Origin: Desulfomicrobium macestii
GTDB lineage: Bacteria > Desulfobacterota > Desulfovibrionia > Desulfovibrionales > Desulfomicrobiaceae
Direction: 5' to 3'
Length of the DNA stretch: 53,774 nt
NCBI RefSeq assembly: GCF_014873765.1
Contig: NZ_JADBGG010000032.1
Location: forward strand, 1 to 53,774
A program made the translations under genes and the position numbers. Shown here in pieces: positions 46,141 to 53,774 of the stretch; position 1 is the first letter of the stretch; every line of letters begins with the position of its first letter. Below the pieces are notes generated by a model. It was not told the DNA's origin, did not search any database, and worked only from the letters and a program-made list of their open reading frames with translations.

Positions 46141-46165
46141 AAAGAGAAAAGCCCCTTTCGGGGCT
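46141..46165 (-). terminator. terminator of the PemK-like operon
   Basis: Stem AGCCCC/GGGGCT with loop TTTC (46150-46165), followed on the minus strand by TTTTCTCTTTT. It overlaps the PemK-like stop codon by 2 bp and ends that leftward operon. Confidence 0.8.
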
Positions 46166-46484
46166 AGTCAAAAACAGTCTTCGTTGCATTTAGTGTCTCT
46201 TGCAACTTATCAGGCTTCAGCTCATCAATTTTCTTAAGAAAAATACGATTCTCACAGGTTACGATCCTGTCTACGCGGATCAATCCTGGGCGGACAGCAG
46301 CGTTTTTGGTGTCGTTGGGAGACAAGGGTACTGCGTATTGGGAACGGCTTGGCTGGGTGGTGAGCATGCAAACGATGCAGTCATTTCCAGGGAGTGAGCT
46401 GAGAACCAGAACTGGACGAACCTTTGCATTCTTGAGGTCTGTGAAGGGAAACGGCATGACGAAAATGTCTCCCCGTTTGATCAT
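46164..46484 (-). CDS. PemK/MazF-family toxin-like protein
   Basis: 106 aa. The N-terminus MIKRGDIFVMPFPFTDLKNA and the RPVLVLSS strand are hallmarks of the PemK/MazF fold, whose members are sequence-specific mRNA endoribonucleases in toxin-antitoxin pairs. The start at 46484 gives an ATGA overlap with the upstream gene; in-frame sequence further upstream belongs to that gene. The partner is a 159-aa TPR-like protein and not the usual small DNA-binding antitoxin, so a toxin role is likely but unproven. Confidence 0.85.
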   Translation of the reverse strand: MIKRGDIFVMPFPFTDLKNAKVRPVLVLSSLPGNDCIVCMLTTQPSRSQYAVPLSPNDTKNAAVRPGLIRVDRIVTCENRIFLKKIDELKPDKLQETLNATKTVFD

Positions 46485-46960
46485 TTCTCGCCTGCTGCAA
46501 AATTCATCATGCACATTCGCGTCAGATCTTCCTCGGTATCTTCCTTCATGTCTTCCCACATCTCGTCGAGCATTTTGGATGAGATGTTTTCCATGAGTCC
46601 GGTGATGTGCTCTGATGTCGGCGAGATCGTTTCCGCGGCTTTGGCTTGTACGTAGGATTCTGCGAACTTCCCAACCATCGCAAGGGATTGGGCAAAGTTG
46701 AATCGTGTCTTAAAGGTGTTTCCTTCGACGTCGAGTGCCTGGGTGTAATATTTTCTCACGGCGTCCACGTCGTCTCGAATCGCACTGATCGCACCCATAA
46801 CATAGATGTAGTTGATCCAGTCACTATCTTTCGACGAAGCTGCCAGCTTTTCAAGGCGTGACAAAGTGAATTCGTCAAACTTGTCGCTTTCGACTCTGGT
46901 TGCAAGCTCACCAAGTACCTTGGCGGCCTCGGATTCTTCGTGCGCGACGTGCTTTGCCAT
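46481..46960 (-). CDS. TPR-like 159-aa protein in antitoxin position
   Basis: Strongly acidic and helical, with no recognised DNA-binding domain. Residues about 65-115 (YYTQALDV, FNFAQSLAMVGKFAESYVQA) follow a tetratricopeptide-like pattern, so it may bind protein. It overlaps the PemK-like gene by 4 bp and is translated first, as an antitoxin would be. It could neutralise the toxin by direct contact, or the pair could be something other than a toxin-antitoxin system. The family was not recognised. Confidence 0.7.
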   Translation of the reverse strand: MAKHVAHEESEAAKVLGELATRVESDKFDEFTLSRLEKLAASSKDSDWINYIYVMGAISAIRDDVDAVRKYYTQALDVEGNTFKTRFNFAQSLAMVGKFAESYVQAKAAETISPTSEHITGLMENISSKMLDEMWEDMKEDTEEDLTRMCMMNFAAGEK

Positions 46961-47071
46961 GTCCTACGGCTATAACACGATATGGCCAGAGTCAACGAAC
47001 GGCGGAATATCTCAGGAGCTATGTCGTAGAAAAGGACTTGTCGCATATAGCTACAAGTCCTTTAAATTCAT

Positions 47072-47132
47072 TGGTGCCCAGGGCGGGACTTGAACCCGCA
47101 CGACCCGAAGGTCAAGGGATTTTAAATCCCTT
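47072..47132 (-). tRNA. 3' fragment of tRNA-Leu (UAA), island attachment site
   Basis: On the minus strand the sequence begins at the anticodon stem (AGGGA, loop TTTAAAA with anticodon TAA, TCCCT), then a leucine-type long variable arm (TGACCTTCGGGTCGT), T-arm GCGGGTTCAAGTCCCGC and acceptor CCTGGGCACCA. The 5' half (acceptor and D-arm) is missing: upstream bases (47133 onward) do not pair. This is the expected remnant where an integrase has inserted into the 3' half of a tRNA gene. The intact tRNA-Leu should be at the far end of the island, beyond the window. Not functional as it stands. Confidence 0.85.
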
Positions 47133-47285
47133 TTATATGCTTACCTAGAAGTCACGGATAATCACGATTGTTTGACATTTTAGATTGTTATGTGTAAGTG
47201 AGCTTCACCGATGTTCACGAAATTTACCCATACTTCACGAGATTTCGGGGGACAGGTGGGGGACAAATTTTTAAGGGGGGGGAGA

Positions 47286-48467
47286 ATGGGCTACGAGTGG
47301 AAAAAGACAAAGTATGAGGGGATCAGGTACCGCGAGCATCCGACACGCCAGCATGGTGTGCGTAAGGATCGTTATTATGTCCTTCGGCAACGTGTCAACG
47401 GGCGGCGAGTTGAAGAGGCCTTGGGGTGGGAATCTCAGGGTTTCAATTTGCAGAAAGTGCGCGAGATTCAGTCAGCTTTGCTCCTAGCTGCGAAGACTGG
47501 TAGTGGCCCACGGACACTGGCCGAAATGCGGGCCGCTGATGAACAGGCCCGCAAACGAGAAGAAGAAAATAAGGAGATTGAACGAAACAAGTCGATATCG
47601 ATAAGCGACTACTGGGACACATATCTTGCCTTCGCAAAAACCAAAAAAGGTGAGTCTAGCTGGGAAAAGGAAGAATCGCACTATAGAAATTGGATTTCCC
47701 AAGTCCTGGGAGATGTGCCGATCCGAGAGCTTTATAGACTTGAACATTGGGATAAGTTGATGGCGGTCCTTGTAGATGCAAATTTAGCGCCAAGGACTCG
47801 TCAGTATGTGGCTTTTACACTCCGTCAATGCGTTGTTCATGCATATAAAAGGGGTATGGTTGACGCACCGCCGCCGCAGCTAAAGGATGTCGGGGCTGTG
47901 CTGAAGCCGAATAGCAATCAGCGGACTAGGGTTATTTCAACTGAAGAGTTTAAGCAGATCCTTAATAACTTGCGAGAAAAAGACGAATATGCGTATAGAA
48001 TGACTGTTTTCGCAGCTATTACCTGTTGTAGAGCATCGCAAGCTTACGATCTTGAGTGGGGCGATATAGATTTTTCTGAGCGTACTGCGCTTGTAAAAGA
48101 AAAAGATCATACGAAAAGAAAAATATATCTTGGCGACAAGGTCATGGATATGCTGAGAGATATGGATAGAGTTGGAGATTATGTTTTTGTAAATGAATCT
48201 GGAGACAAATACAAACAAGCGCCAAAGTCATTTGCTAACGTAGTCAAGAAACTTGGTTTGAATAAAGGGCGTCGTCGTTTAAATAAGATAGTATTTCATT
48301 CACTCAGGCACACTGGAGCTACTAGGCTTGGCAAATTGATACCTTTGCGAGATTTAATGGATGTTATCGGTTGGAAAACAGCCACTATTGCTATGCGATA
48401 TCAAAAAACTGAGAAGGAAATTCAAGATAAAGCGACGATTGAGCTGGAGAAAATGGTATTGAGCTAA
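47286..48467 (+). CDS. tyrosine integrase of the genomic island
   Basis: 393 aa, phage-type site-specific recombinase. Catalytic residues are Arg (about 249, TCCRASQAYDLEW), HxxR (H338, R341, FHSLRHTGATRLG), Trp (about 363, VIGW) and Tyr (about 372, MRYQKT). The N-terminal half is Arg- and Lys-rich DNA-binding sequence (arm and core-binding domains). A run of G residues gives a strong ribosome site before the ATG at 47286; an upstream ATG at 47211 is less likely. It lies 150 bp from the tRNA-Leu fragment, so it most probably made the insertion. Confidence 0.92.
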   Translation: MGYEWKKTKYEGIRYREHPTRQHGVRKDRYYVLRQRVNGRRVEEALGWESQGFNLQKVREIQSALLLAAKTGSGPRTLAEMRAADEQARKREEENKEIERNKSISISDYWDTYLAFAKTKKGESSWEKEESHYRNWISQVLGDVPIRELYRLEHWDKLMAVLVDANLAPRTRQYVAFTLRQCVVHAYKRGMVDAPPPQLKDVGAVLKPNSNQRTRVISTEEFKQILNNLREKDEYAYRMTVFAAITCCRASQAYDLEWGDIDFSERTALVKEKDHTKRKIYLGDKVMDMLRDMDRVGDYVFVNESGDKYKQAPKSFANVVKKLGLNKGRRRLNKIVFHSLRHTGATRLGKLIPLRDLMDVIGWKTATIAMRYQKTEKEIQDKATIELEKMVLS

Positions 48468-48656: not shown

Positions 48657-48983
48657 TTAAAAATCAAATTTTTTATCATCTTGAATGATGTTGTTATAAT
48701 TATTTTTGAAATTATCTTCGGAAAGATGATTTTTGTATGAATCTTTCATGGGATTTGCAATTTGAAGTATTTGTCGCTCTATCTGCATTGCGTATAAAAT
48801 ATCAATAATATTTTTTATAGGGGTTTCTGGGTCACCTTTTTCAATTTTTTCAATTGTAGTGGGGCTTAATTCGGAAATTTCTGCTAATTTCTGGATTGAT
48901 AGTTCTCTTCTTAATCTGGCAGATTTTAAGTTTTTTCCAACCTTCATAGAAAGAACTTCAGTCATGCTAAATGATTTTTTCAT
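48657..48983 (-). CDS. XRE-family regulator
   Basis: About 108 aa, AT-rich codons. The helix-turn-helix (GKNLKSARLRRELSIQKLAE, then ISELSPTTIEKIEKGD) is typical of Cro/CI-type regulators at about residues 15-65; the rest is Asn- and Lys-rich. The ATG at 48983 is preferred; TTG at 49016 would give 119 aa. It lies 41 bp downstream of the 182-aa gene, probably in one operon, as in toxin-antitoxin or prophage regulator pairs. Confidence 0.75.
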   Translation of the reverse strand: MKKSFSMTEVLSMKVGKNLKSARLRRELSIQKLAEISELSPTTIEKIEKGDPETPIKNIIDILYAMQIERQILQIANPMKDSYKNHLSEDNFKNNYNNIIQDDKKFDF

Positions 48984-49024
48984 AGATGAAATATCCTCTA
49001 ATAATATTTTCTTCAAATTAATAC

Positions 49025-49794: not shown

Positions 49795-50502
49795 ATGCCA
49801 GCTTCATTAGACAACTCTGAGCTTAGTAAAGAACAGGCTGCGGTAGGCTTGGATTCTCAAGGAAGGGCGTCCGCTGAAAATAATGATGCCGCCTCATTTG
49901 AGGTAATATTGTCCAGAATGCTTGCTGTAATCGGCGGGGAGCGTCCGGCAGATCTTGCGGGTGTCTTGGGTATCTCGCAGGCGTCAGTGTCAGGTGCCAA
50001 GAAAAGGAAAAATATCCCTGATAATTGGTTTTGGGCAATTTCAGATAAGTATGGGGTATCAGTCGACTGGCTTCGGAATGGTACAGGGGAAATTCCGGAG
50101 GGCGTTGGGTTTAATGTTAAGACTATGCCTGTTAAAAAGGTTAGGAATGAGAGAGTTGTTCAGAGCCAAGGGCGTATGTCTCGGACAAGATCTAGTTCTC
50201 AATCTTGTTCGATTGAAACGCATGGTGATGAAACAGATTTAGATATCGTTGAGCTTCTTGGGAAGGTTGTTGAGATTTTAAAATCGGAGAGCGTATATTC
50301 AGTTGCAATGGTTCATAATATACAAGCTTTTCACCAATCTATTCGTAACGATCGAGAAATAGATAGGTTGCGAAACAAGCTTGATCACAATAAGCATATA
50401 TTAGAAATACAGGTAGATGATATTGTGAATGGGTTTAAGGTTTTTCAAGAGGAAAATGAGTTGTTCAAAAAGCAAAAAGTTGAAAATAATAAAAATGATT
50501 AA
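49795..50502 (+). CDS. CI-like repressor without peptidase domain
   Basis: 235 aa. Residues about 35-100 match the phage CI repressor helix-turn-helix family (LAGVLGISQASVSGAKKRKN, then IPDNWFWAISDKYGVSVDWL). After a Ser/Arg-rich linker the C-terminus is a probable coiled coil (DREIDRLRNKLDHNKHILEI) instead of the LexA-like S24 autocleavage domain. It could therefore dimerise but should not respond to RecA by self-cleavage. The ribosome site is weak. Divergent from the 182-aa/XRE pair. Confidence 0.8.
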   Translation: MPASLDNSELSKEQAAVGLDSQGRASAENNDAASFEVILSRMLAVIGGERPADLAGVLGISQASVSGAKKRKNIPDNWFWAISDKYGVSVDWLRNGTGEIPEGVGFNVKTMPVKKVRNERVVQSQGRMSRTRSSSQSCSIETHGDETDLDIVELLGKVVEILKSESVYSVAMVHNIQAFHQSIRNDREIDRLRNKLDHNKHILEIQVDDIVNGFKVFQEENELFKKQKVENNKND

Positions 50503-50740: not shown

Positions 50741-50745
50741 GTGTT

Positions 50746-50965
50746 GATCTCGTCGATAATCAACGGTCTCGGGCCAAGCGGGACAGGGAATGTTGCACTT
50801 AGCCATTTGGCCATGGTTCTGGGCTATCTGCCCACGCAGTATGGCATCAAGGTCCGCTTCATGTCTGCGGCGTATCTGATGCTTTATCTGGAGAGCGCAA
50901 AACGTCAGGGCGCTACAAAGATTGCCTCAAATGGAGCGTCCTTGATCAGAGGAAAATTTTGTCCT
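50746..50965 (+). pseudogene. istB (IS21 helper ATPase) fragment, frameshifted
   Basis: Reads [20 protein letters not shown], the Walker A region of IstB (normally GPSGTGKTHLA) with a disrupted lysine, then [24 protein letters not shown] frameshift follows, and the next frame continues with [14 protein letters not shown] as in IstB. The Walker B and rest are gone, so it is a dead remnant of an IS21-family element. Confidence 0.65.
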
Positions 50966-51004
50966 CTTTGCGGTTCATCTTTTTGTTTTCATTGGTATGA
51001 AATG

Positions 51005-53203
51005 TCAAAAAATATCTGAAGTTATTTCTTTATATATGTTGGACTTGTCGCTAGGCAAAAATCTAGCATAATGATCTTTGACAGTTTGTTCGTCATCATT
51101 AATTGCCATTGCAGCAAGTGCATATGATCCAGTTTTTTTTATGACATGGGTTGCGATTATGTCGCGTAATGCATGCGGTCCATGCGGCTGCAAATTTTCA
51201 ATTCCTGGATCAATTCTGTACTTATGATAACACATGTACTGTTTGGTAAAATTTTTTATCATTTTCGAAAACGATTTTTCTGAATATTGTTTGTTTTTAT
51301 TTGTGACAATTAGATATTGATTTGTATTATTAAATAATATGTTTTTAACTGATGTGTAATTTTCAATGTCTTTGTATAGATTGTTAGTATTTGAAATTTC
51401 AGTATATGTTCTTTTTTTGTTTTTTACTCTGTTTGCAGGGACATCAATGTAGTACATATCGGCAATTTTAAAAAGTTGCTCGTTTTTTTCATTGTGTCCA
51501 TCAGTCTGCATAATAGATCTTGTGTTTTTTGCTCGTAATGCTGTTTGAAGAATTATCATTAGGCTTAAATAGCCATTCATAAAATTAAAAAATTCTAATG
51601 GCCTTGTATCAATATATGAAATTCTACTCCTTACTTTGCAAAGTAAAGATAGGTATTCTTTGATCGGTTCGTCAGAATTTAATACTGGCTCAATTGGCTT
51701 AAAAGGGTCGCGTGATTTTTCTATGGAGCCGTTTCTGTCGATTTGTGTGCTTTTATACGTTGAATTAATTTGTTTTTTTAATTCTGTATAATACTTGCGT
51801 GTTTGTAGGCAAAATTTTTTCCAACCTTTTTCAGTGAGAATGTCGAATTCGCCCATATCAAACGTGGTCAGTGAAGATAGTTTTTGAATTAGAGTTTCAT
51901 TAGCATAAAAATTTGTTTGATAAATAAATCCGTAATTTTCTCGCAATAGTCCGCACACAAGTACGAGGAATTGAATGTCATCGGAGCATATCTTTCCGCG
52001 TTTATTGATTTTAAACTGTATATATTTATAAACGAGATTTTTGTTTAAAAGTAAAGACAGGGAGTAGTCCTGTTTTTGAATCTTATCAGACTGCTCAAAT
52101 TTGTCTATATATCCAAAAAAATATAAAATAGCGTCTTTATTTTTTTTGGAGGTGGCTGAATTCCATGACTTAAGTTTGCTGTAATTTATATCAGGGATTA
52201 ACGACTCTTTAAATTCAATTAAGTTTAGCAGTTCATTTTTTAAGAGTGGTGATTGGTCAAGTTCTTTGTATTGGTATTGGTTTTTAGCGTTTTCTGCGCA
52301 TTTTTTGCTAAATTCGTTGTCGGCGATAACAATGTTGTTCATAATCCATTTGCACACTTCGATTTTTTTTTCATCTGTAGCTGTTTTAAATTCGAAGTTT
52401 AGGTTTGATAAATACGGTTTGAGGATGGTGTATTTTTCAACATAATAATTGGGAAGATCTGATTTTTTGATATCCTCTGTGGTGTTTTTTTTTGGCAACT
52501 TGTTTAATAATGTATGCTTCGGTAAGTTATATGCTTTTTCAAGTTTCATGACAATTTCAGTATTTTTTGGCGTGTTGACACCTCGGATAATGTGTTTCGC
52601 ATTTCCTTTTTTTATATTTGCAAGTTTTTCTACCTGGCGTATTGATAGGCCGCTTTCTTCGTGAATTTTCTTGATGGTTTCAGCAAAGCTATCGGGTAGA
52701 TTTTTTGAGATAGCGTAGCTATCATAATATTCTTTAATTTTTAATGCAAATTTGATATATTTTTGTTTAGTTTCAATTTTTTTGTCATTGAATATGGTCT
52801 CTATGGCATATTTGTATTTTTTAAATTCTAAATTGAACAGATCGTCTATATAATCATCTTCTGATTTTTCAAAGTGTTTCATTATTGACTTGAATACAGT
52901 CATAATTCCATTATTTTTTGAGTAATCTCTCAAACTTGCTTTCTCTGCATATGATAAAAAATCACGTACGCATATTTTTGTGTATACATTGTTGAGAATT
53001 GGTTGGTTAGCTAAAATTTCTTTTCTTTGATTTATCATTTTTCTTGCAGTCATTGATTTTAGATATTTGACAGGCAATTTTGTTGCTTCTGCTATTTCAT
53101 AGAGGTCGACAGTGTCGTTTCTCAATCCTGATTCGGGCAAGAATTTTATTTCTCTTAGGTAATTTTCTAAAATTGTTTTGTTTTCTTTGTTTGTCTTATT
53201 CAT
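51005..53203 (-). CDS. 732-aa tyrosine recombinase-like protein with internal helix-turn-helix
   Basis: Very AT-rich and Lys/Asn-rich. The C-terminal ~180 residues carry the tyrosine-recombinase set: Arg about 557 ([13 protein letters not shown]), HxxR at H677/R680 ([12 protein letters not shown]) and Tyr about 712 (VKDHYARF). The usual histidine or tryptophan before the tyrosine appears to be replaced (AINDDEQTV). Residues about 174-236 form an XRE-like helix-turn-helix ([20 protein letters not shown]), unusual inside a recombinase, and another possible HTH lies at residues 32-60. The family was not identified; about twice the size of a normal integrase. GAGGAT precedes the ATG, and the palindrome TTGATATCA lies 18 bp upstream of it. 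Confidence 0.75.
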
Positions 53204-53413
53204 GTTTTAGATCCTCATGATTGATATCAAATAATCCATCGGAAAATGATTTTTTTTCTATTTTTTAAATAACTATCTGTAATATTGGTGATAAATAAAG
53301 AAGATATTTACTTGGTTATTTTCAGCTAGGCAGGTTTATATTTTTTTCCAAAATCAATTATTTTTTTACTAACTAGCTGATTTAATTTTCTAATAATTTA
53401 AAGAATTGCCTAA
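53204..53413. other. AT-rich spacer between recombinase and ribbon-helix-helix gene
   Basis: Very AT-rich; no gene seen. It should contain the leftward promoter of the 732-aa gene. The palindrome TTGATATCAA is at 53221-53230, and a second copy of the motif is at 53430-53438, just inside the next gene. Confidence 0.5.
53221..53230. promoter_or_regulatory. candidate operator TTGATATCAA upstream of the recombinase
   Basis: Perfect 10-bp palindrome whose near edge is 18 bp upstream of the A of the start codon at 53203. The same core is at 53596-53604, at the same distance from the ribbon-helix-helix start, and a third copy is at 53430-53438. An 8-bp palindromic core suits binding by a ribbon-helix-helix dimer. 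Confidence 0.5.
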
Positions 53414-53578
53414 TTAATTATTTTTTCTGTTGATATCACTTTTTCTGGCTTCTTTTATATGACTTTCGATGATGCTGTTTAAGTACTGATTCATGCTTGT
53501 TAGGTTTTTTTTAGCCAACATTTTTATTGATTCAATGTTTTCGTTGTTTGTTCTGAGTAGATATTTTTGTGTTTTCAT
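53414..53578 (-). CDS. ribbon-helix-helix (Arc/CopG-like) DNA-binding protein
   Basis: 54 aa. A short strand (TQKYLLRT) is followed by two helices (NIESIKMLAKKN and SMNQYLNSIIESHIKEA), the pattern of Arc/CopG-type repressors. AAAGAGGGAC gives a good ribosome site for the ATG at 53578; an upstream in-frame ATG at 53605 would overlap the candidate operator. It is probably a local repressor of itself and of the recombinase gene downstream on the same strand. Confidence 0.7.
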   Translation of the reverse strand: MKTQKYLLRTNNENIESIKMLAKKNLTSMNQYLNSIIESHIKEARKSDINRKNN

Positions 53579-53595
53579 ATTTTGTCCCTCTTTAA

Positions 53596-53604
53596 TTGAT
53601 ATCA
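53596..53604. promoter_or_regulatory. candidate operator TTGATATCA upstream of the ribbon-helix-helix gene
   Basis: Same motif as at 53221, with its near edge also exactly 18 bp upstream of the start codon (53578). This supports one regulator controlling both genes. See the related finding. Confidence 0.5.
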
Positions 53605-53629
53605 TCGGATTTTAATTTTTTTTTAAATT

Positions 53630-53662
53630 CACAAAAAAAAGCGGCTTGCGCCGCTTTTTTTT
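53630..53662. terminator. bidirectional terminator
   Basis: Stem GCGGC/GCCGC with loop TTGC (53641-53654 approximately), flanked by an A-run on the left and a T-run on the right, so it can end transcription in both directions. It insulates the island module from the insertion element at the right edge. Confidence 0.75.
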
Positions 53663-53685
53663 GTTGATTATATTTTTTTATGCGC

Positions 53686-53774
53686 ATTCCGGACAAACTG
53701 ACCAGTGATTCCACTGCAAACTGCCCACCTGTTCCGGCTGAAACTGACCAGGAAATCGGAGCGAAGCGACGCTG
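53686..53774 (+). mobile_element. left end of an IS21-family insertion sequence (partial)
   Basis: Three tandem 22-23 bp units each of the form (A/G)TTCC...AAACTG(A/C)CCA begin at 53686, 53708 and 53731. Such multiple terminal repeats before istA are typical of IS21-family elements, where IstA binds. The istA and istB genes should lie to the right of the window. The boundary cannot be fixed because the outer inverted repeat was not identified with certainty. Confidence 0.55.

Follow-up and report, generated by a model that had tools for sequence, protein, structure and literature searches.

A palindrome at equal distance from the starts of a large tyrosine recombinase gene and its small neighbour, a possible pair of operators

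The 8-bp palindrome TGATATCA stands exactly 18 bases before the start codon of each of two adjacent genes at one end of the window, by which is meant the whole 53,774-nt stretch of Desulfomicrobium macestii DNA that was analysed. One gene encodes a large tyrosine recombinase. The other encodes a protein of 54 amino acids, a candidate ribbon-helix-helix (RHH) protein. Both lie on the minus strand, and both belong to a mobile DNA segment. Our leading but tentative reading, held with a little less than even confidence, is that the TGATATCA boxes are start-site operators for a dimeric regulator encoded locally, most likely the 54-aa protein. The features involved are the following.

51005-53203, minus strand: gene for the 732-aa tyrosine recombinase (PF00589, E 3.8e-08), ATG at 53203
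51008-51571, minus strand: C-terminal catalytic region of the recombinase, aa 545-732, from the Pfam match and alignments
52499-52687, minus strand: Cro/XRE-type HTH domain within the recombinase, around aa 173-235 (HTH_3, E 0.0056, below cut-off)
53222-53229, minus strand: box 1, TGATATCA, within the 10-bp palindrome TTGATATCAA at 53221-53230; 18 nt from the recombinase ATG
53231-53236, minus strand: possible -10 of the recombinase gene, GATTAT, by eye
53414-53578, minus strand: gene for the 54-aa protein, candidate Arc-like RHH protein from weak profile matches, ATG at 53578
53431-53438, minus strand: box 3, TGATATCA, within codons 47-50 of the 54-aa gene
53597-53604, minus strand: box 2, TGATATCA, 18 nt ahead of the start codon of the 54-aa gene
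53609-53614, minus strand: possible -10 of the 54-aa gene, TAAAAT, by eye
53631-53664, plus strand: terminator-like hairpin upstream of the 54-aa gene, flanked on either side by runs of A and T
53680-53774, strand not assigned: end of an IS21-family element, in which the window stops; copies elsewhere in the genome

The window holds three copies of TGATATCA, beginning at 53222, 53431 and 53597, and no other. The 9-mer TTGATATCA reads on the plus strand from 53221, 53430 and 53596, and on the minus strand from 53222, where it is part of TTGATATCAA; counted from the 9-mer, the distance to each ATG is 17. A preliminary description of this DNA had placed the same palindrome 18 bp upstream of both genes, and position counting bears this out for the 8-mer. 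The observation is sound, even though it was selected after the fact. The two outer boxes sit in a 10-nt stretch of the coding strand, TGATATCAAT, that is identical in both leaders. Read 5' to 3', the recombinase leader is TTGATATCAATCATGAGGATCTAAAACATG and that of the 54-aa gene is ATGATATCAATTAAAGAGGGACAAAATATG, with 10 identical bases followed by GAGG, which resembles a ribosome site at the start of both genes. The heptamer TCCGATG, seen by eye, precedes box 1 and overlaps box 2. An alternative frame of 63 aa would begin at an ATG that overlaps box 2, with no ribosome site apparent by eye.

The third copy, which the description had set between the other two at 53430, does exist. It is not intergenic, however, but is located near the 3' end of the 54-aa coding sequence (codons AGT GAT ATC AAC), outside the 210-bp gap between the two genes. 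Given the peptide, its probability is about 0.024 from local codon usage, a usage that includes the codons of box 3 itself. Box 3 may be a third site or may be chance. A scan of 53181-53774 at 0-1 mismatch, a limit beyond which more degenerate adjoining sites are possible, finds no further copy besides the three.

How readily would such an arrangement arise by chance? Expectations from the whole window are too lenient (too low), because this end has a GC content of 30%. Chance was gauged by local dinucleotide shuffles, 2000 for each of three regions. Three copies of TGATATCA were reached in 0/2000 shuffles of 53201-53620, in 0/2000 of the last 1000 bases and in 1/2000 of 51005-53774. Any 8-bp palindrome present three times is, of course, easier to obtain (11/2000, 55/2000 and, for the 2.77 kb of the third region, 677/2000). 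For the two 60-nt leaders, an 8-bp palindrome common to both appears at equal offset in 27 of 100,000 shuffles, and at any offset in 1,496 of 100,000. An identical run at equal offset reaches at least 8 bases in 1,060/100,000 and at least 10, the length observed, in 139/100,000. When 309 same-strand neighbour pairs were compared, only this pair had an 8-bp palindrome in common within 60 nt upstream; it enters twice, from the window and from the copy L001, and the AT-rich pairs number only 10, both included.

Across its own genome TGATATCA is fairly common, with 39 copies against 3 for the pattern read backwards. No second cluster of three boxes occurs among the 39. Thirteen of the 36 other copies were inspected, and 12 lie within an open frame 60 or more codons long, which is a weak test in GC-rich DNA. 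The remaining one lies 13 nt before an ATG (L136:1878-1885; G000:C14:103377), where the gene start looks LysR-like by eye.

These counts bear on the view that the arrangement is a coincidence, in which short AT-rich leaders with similar ribosome sites have come to share a partly palindromic 10-mer. The ease with which some palindrome recurs three times in the longer shuffled regions speaks for that view, as do the frequency of runs of at least 10, the choice of the motif post hoc out of a 54-kb window and its abundance in the genome. The scarcity of equal-offset palindromes, the failure of shuffled 53201-53620 to yield three TGATATCA and the lack of any similar pair among the 309 tell against it. 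The earlier statement that chance is hard to invoke thus keeps the same-offset shuffles on its side, while the post hoc choice and the 39 genome copies weaken it. The arrangement exceeds local chance expectation and is unlikely by chance; coincidence retains, in our estimate, a minor but real share of the probability.

The shared stretch might also be an element of the promoter or of the leader, or else the operator of the XRE-like regulator (48657-49016), the CI-like regulator (49795-50502) or a host factor. Two HTH regulators do lie within 5 kb, the stretch keeps a constant distance to the start codon, as would also suit a leader element, and the genome is not short of TGATATCA, including the copy just before an ATG. 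No TGATATCA, however, is found near the XRE-like or the CI-like gene. By eye, none of the hexamers in TGATATCAAT combines the A of position 2 with the T of position 6 of a -10 box. Nor do the two leaders fold better than shuffles (z 1.03 and 0.46), on which ground an RNA leader in the window was rejected. We regard this family of explanations as rather unlikely. A recombination core site was likewise rejected: the arms of known core sites are much longer than those of these boxes, and the boxes have no spacer.

The sequence fits operators: the boxes stand just before the ribosome site, are perfectly symmetrical and share their spacing. A contiguous 8-bp palindrome is the size that one RHH dimer reads, as in the MetJ box, and the two helices of an HTH dimer enter successive major grooves. 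Such a palindrome suits a single RHH dimer better than it does an HTH dimer. RHH proteins frequently occupy the promoter or transcription start of the genes that encode them, and their dimers typically bind several sites cooperatively (PMC5569661); the omega dimer reads one 7-bp repeat (PMC4803016). Two or more adjoining sites are usual for RHH repressors, and here there is one exact box per leader.

The RHH identity of the 54-aa protein is that of a candidate, suggested by weak profile matches. Of four PHROG families that match (E 0.0013-0.0027), three bear the name Arc-like (E 0.0013-0.0023). The sole Pfam match, HicB (E 0.073), is below cut-off, and NCBIfam gives no match. In a PDB search Arc ranks second among six weak matches (E 0.72) and is the only DNA-binding one, the other five being unrelated. 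An AlphaFold model consists of one helix (residues 2-53, pLDDT 96.7); it was built from the single sequence as a monomer, with neither alignment nor dimer, whereas RHH proteins fold as dimers. The model is not supportive of an RHH fold. Relatives of the protein are absent from the plasmids and viral contigs searched. Phages gave matches at E 0.3 in 16 Acinetobacter phage records, and the class genomes gave matches at E 0.004-0.9 in 35 others, where the best four are parts of 188-206-aa frames. No close homologue was found in any of these four collections.

The preliminary description had proposed that the small RHH protein represses itself and the recombinase. Position, symmetry and spacing of the boxes favour the proposal; the RHH part of it has behind it the PHROG matches from E 0.0013 and the PDB match to Arc at E 0.72, and the one-helix model does not support it. 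What speaks against the 54-aa protein is that its family assignment is weak, its model is helical and tandem sites are wanting; nor did a promoter scan call a promoter at GATTAT or TAAAAT, the hexamers taken here as -10 boxes. In the mechanism that we nevertheless prefer, each of the two TGATATCA boxes would be an operator at a transcription start, one that of the 54-aa gene and the other that of the recombinase gene. Both would be bound by a dimeric regulator made on the spot, most likely the Arc-like 54-aa protein. Bound there, it would repress its own gene and keep the recombinase low; production of the recombinase would be confined to times when little of the small protein is present, such as entry into a new cell. 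We infer all of these elements: binding by the 54-aa protein, repression and the transcription start sites.

The recombinase itself supplies a further candidate. Like other members of the phage-integrase family PF00589, it keeps the catalytic R-K-H-R-Y of tyrosine recombinases, with R557, K594, H677, R680 and Y712 invariant in alignments of 7 and 18 sequences. Unlike the canonical set, it has 732 aa, a Cro/XRE-type HTH domain and an invariant Asp703, nine positions before Y712. This Asp stands about where the sixth catalytic residue, the canonical His/Trp, would be, in a register set by eye against what we take to be that of XerD. NCBIfam gives no match for the recombinase or for three relatives, and PHROG no integrase match for the recombinase of the window. 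A structural model is poor over much of its length (mean pLDDT 61), with aa 171-230 at pLDDT 82-87. Foldseek relates it to the DdrO HTH, SinR, 434 Cro and C.AhdI at TM (target) 0.77-0.80 and E 0.17-1.0, with no match at E 0.001 or better; these matches, listed with no range in the model, probably fall at about aa 173-235. The recombinase thus carries a domain modelled with an HTH fold, and this domain is a real rival as binder of the boxes.

Comparison with relatives of the recombinase bears on both candidates. A single-sequence search found none in genome contigs, phages or viral contigs; an alignment-based search found 452 in genome contigs and 7 in viral contigs. The relatives are mostly from Alphaproteobacteria (122 plasmid records, and the best 80 of the 452 genome-contig loci), and Deinococcus, Pseudoalteromonas and Acinetobacter are other hosts of the plasmids inspected. 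Among 348 class genomes each search gave one genome beyond that of the window, G268 (E 9.3e-4, with stops) and G063 (E 2.8e-13); the latter relative, a frame of 319 aa, opens its contig and so has no readable leader. A sample of 395 genomes of the phylum holds no relative besides the recombinase itself. Neither the recombinase family nor the gene pair is named in the open-licence papers searched.

Of 95 relatives examined, 94 were counted, L092 having no usable frame. From 400 nt before to 180 nt after the frame start, TGATATCA occurs in 0/94; several frames are short or broken (e.g. L031, L072), such that this interval may miss the true start, and the whole-locus count, which covers that case, gives one copy in 5/94. 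Nine palindrome listings for the 700 bp upstream of relatives are also free of TGATATCA (in L021, among the matches listed). The search of homologous loci that had been proposed as a check thus found no such palindrome near the gene. Since the aligned relatives are distant (19-27% identical), this neither supports nor refutes the reading. No homologous gene pair on which conservation could be checked was found in the class genomes, the phylum sample or the genome contigs, and no gene named RHH lies beside the recombinase in 24 plasmid loci whose neighbours were viewed, 3 of them without a gene table.

What some relatives do have is a different, longer inverted repeat at a similar place. Rhodobacterales-type loci carry CTGGG-N4-CCCAG at 17 nt from the start, with one arm pair broken in L077 and L089, and Hyphomicrobiales leaders carry TCGGCA-N4-TGCCGA at 18 nt. 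In 15 leaders the repeat ends 8-23 nt before the ATG, and at 16-18 nt in 11 of them (counted by eye). These were drawn from 41 leaders found, of which 19 were picked by eye; L143, L067 and L017, where the repeat is absent from that position, and L153, identical to L150, were then removed. In the 15 Hyphomicrobiales-type leaders 86.7% of cells pair, against 24-47% when slid. The covariation score was reached by 0/500 shuffles, a count that favours the repeat in that the structure was drawn from the same 15 sequences. Three of the seven pairs are changed on both sides (37/500 shuffles had as many), and further pair types are weak evidence (318/500). Across 64 non-redundant relatives, with start codons guessed by rule, repeats 10-19 nt from the start number 11 against 5.4 (6/300 shuffles as high), which is mild, and the bin at 80-89 nt is equally raised (9 against 3.7; 1/300). 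Folding gives z below -2 in 13 of 41 leaders, related leaders being counted apart. Strong two-tier hairpins lie just before the start at L148:540-601 (z -5.5), L021:2466-2527 (-4.5) and L005:3546-3602 (about -3), and z is above 0 in L144, L141 and L017. The relatives' repeats may be DNA sites or leader hairpins.

All this suggests that symmetry before the recombinase start recurs and that the recombinase's own HTH domain may be what binds it. Here, the domain would read the boxes of the window and repress both its own gene and the small gene. Besides the domain and the repeats near the start, with their covariation score, this explanation can point to six repeat-bearing loci (L006, L016, L018, L144, L145, L151) in which the same-strand position immediately upstream carries no annotated regulator gene. 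For an HTH dimer, however, an uninterrupted palindrome of 8 bp is short, and other repeat loci do have small genes for DNA-binding proteins close by: in L021 and L154 one such gene lies upstream together with a PIN gene, and in L148 and L149 there is a divergent HTH gene. The enrichment over 64 relatives is only mild, two of the covariation measures are weak, and the repeats may work as RNA hairpins. We consider control by the recombinase's own domain unlikely, if a serious competitor.

With the 54-aa protein as the preferred binder, the locus would resemble the Arc/MetJ/CopG repressors in its protein of about 50 aa with weak profile similarity to Arc-like families, and in short palindromic boxes that cover the presumed start both of that protein's gene and of a neighbour. 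It differs from them in having no strong family match and single, isolated boxes rather than tandem ones, and in its second target, which would be a large tyrosine recombinase. Plasmids pDrdII of Deinococcus and pTT1-3-3 of Acinetobacter likewise have a small DNA-binding gene directly upstream of a recombinase-like gene. In both, the small gene encodes a LexA-type winged helix (L003, L020), TGATATCA is absent from the 700 bp upstream, and a large gene with weak, below-cut-off Toprim/primase-like matches follows. On these Deinococcus and Acinetobacter plasmids the LexA-type regulator, the recombinase-like gene and the large, weakly Toprim/primase-like protein form a three-gene run (L003:2052-7453 and L020:826-5956).

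The surroundings are those of mobile DNA. The IS21-family end lies about 100 bp upstream of the 54-aa gene. It is 100% identical to C13:1570-1664, a copy that comes after a Mu-transposase-C-terminal (istA-like) gene and an IstB gene, and, over 94 bases, to C20:89656-89749; a third place in the genome has a 42-bp identical piece, and others are 76-93% identical. Straddling the IS21 edge and directed towards the 54-aa gene is a promoter-like TTGTCC, 18 nt, TATAAT, after which comes the hairpin. Just downstream of the recombinase, at 50741-51019, is an IstB-like gene remnant (E 1.5e-06), and IS21-type sequence therefore flanks the AT-rich recombinase segment on both sides. Farther off, 61 bp at 47071-47131 are identical to C21:64121-64181 and look by eye like the 3' part of a tRNA gene; a tRNA scan of these bases called none. 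Next to an integrase gene (47211-48467), they are the probable attachment site of an island. A PemK/MazF-like toxin gene (E 2.1e-15) lies at 46164-46559.

A broader conjecture, which we think quite doubtful, is that this recombinase family is held in check by a symmetric element at the start site that is rebuilt in each lineage. It would be TGATATCA with a newly recruited Arc-like protein in a two-gene module here, and a long GC-rich repeat or hairpin in Hyphomicrobiales and Rhodobacterales. A small repressor that controls itself and a mobility gene is, of course, a mechanism of a well-known and ordinary kind. If the reading of the boxes as operators is true, however, the two genes would offer, for the large recombinases that are widespread as a class on plasmids and islands, a control module of minimal size and a short operator that is open to direct test.
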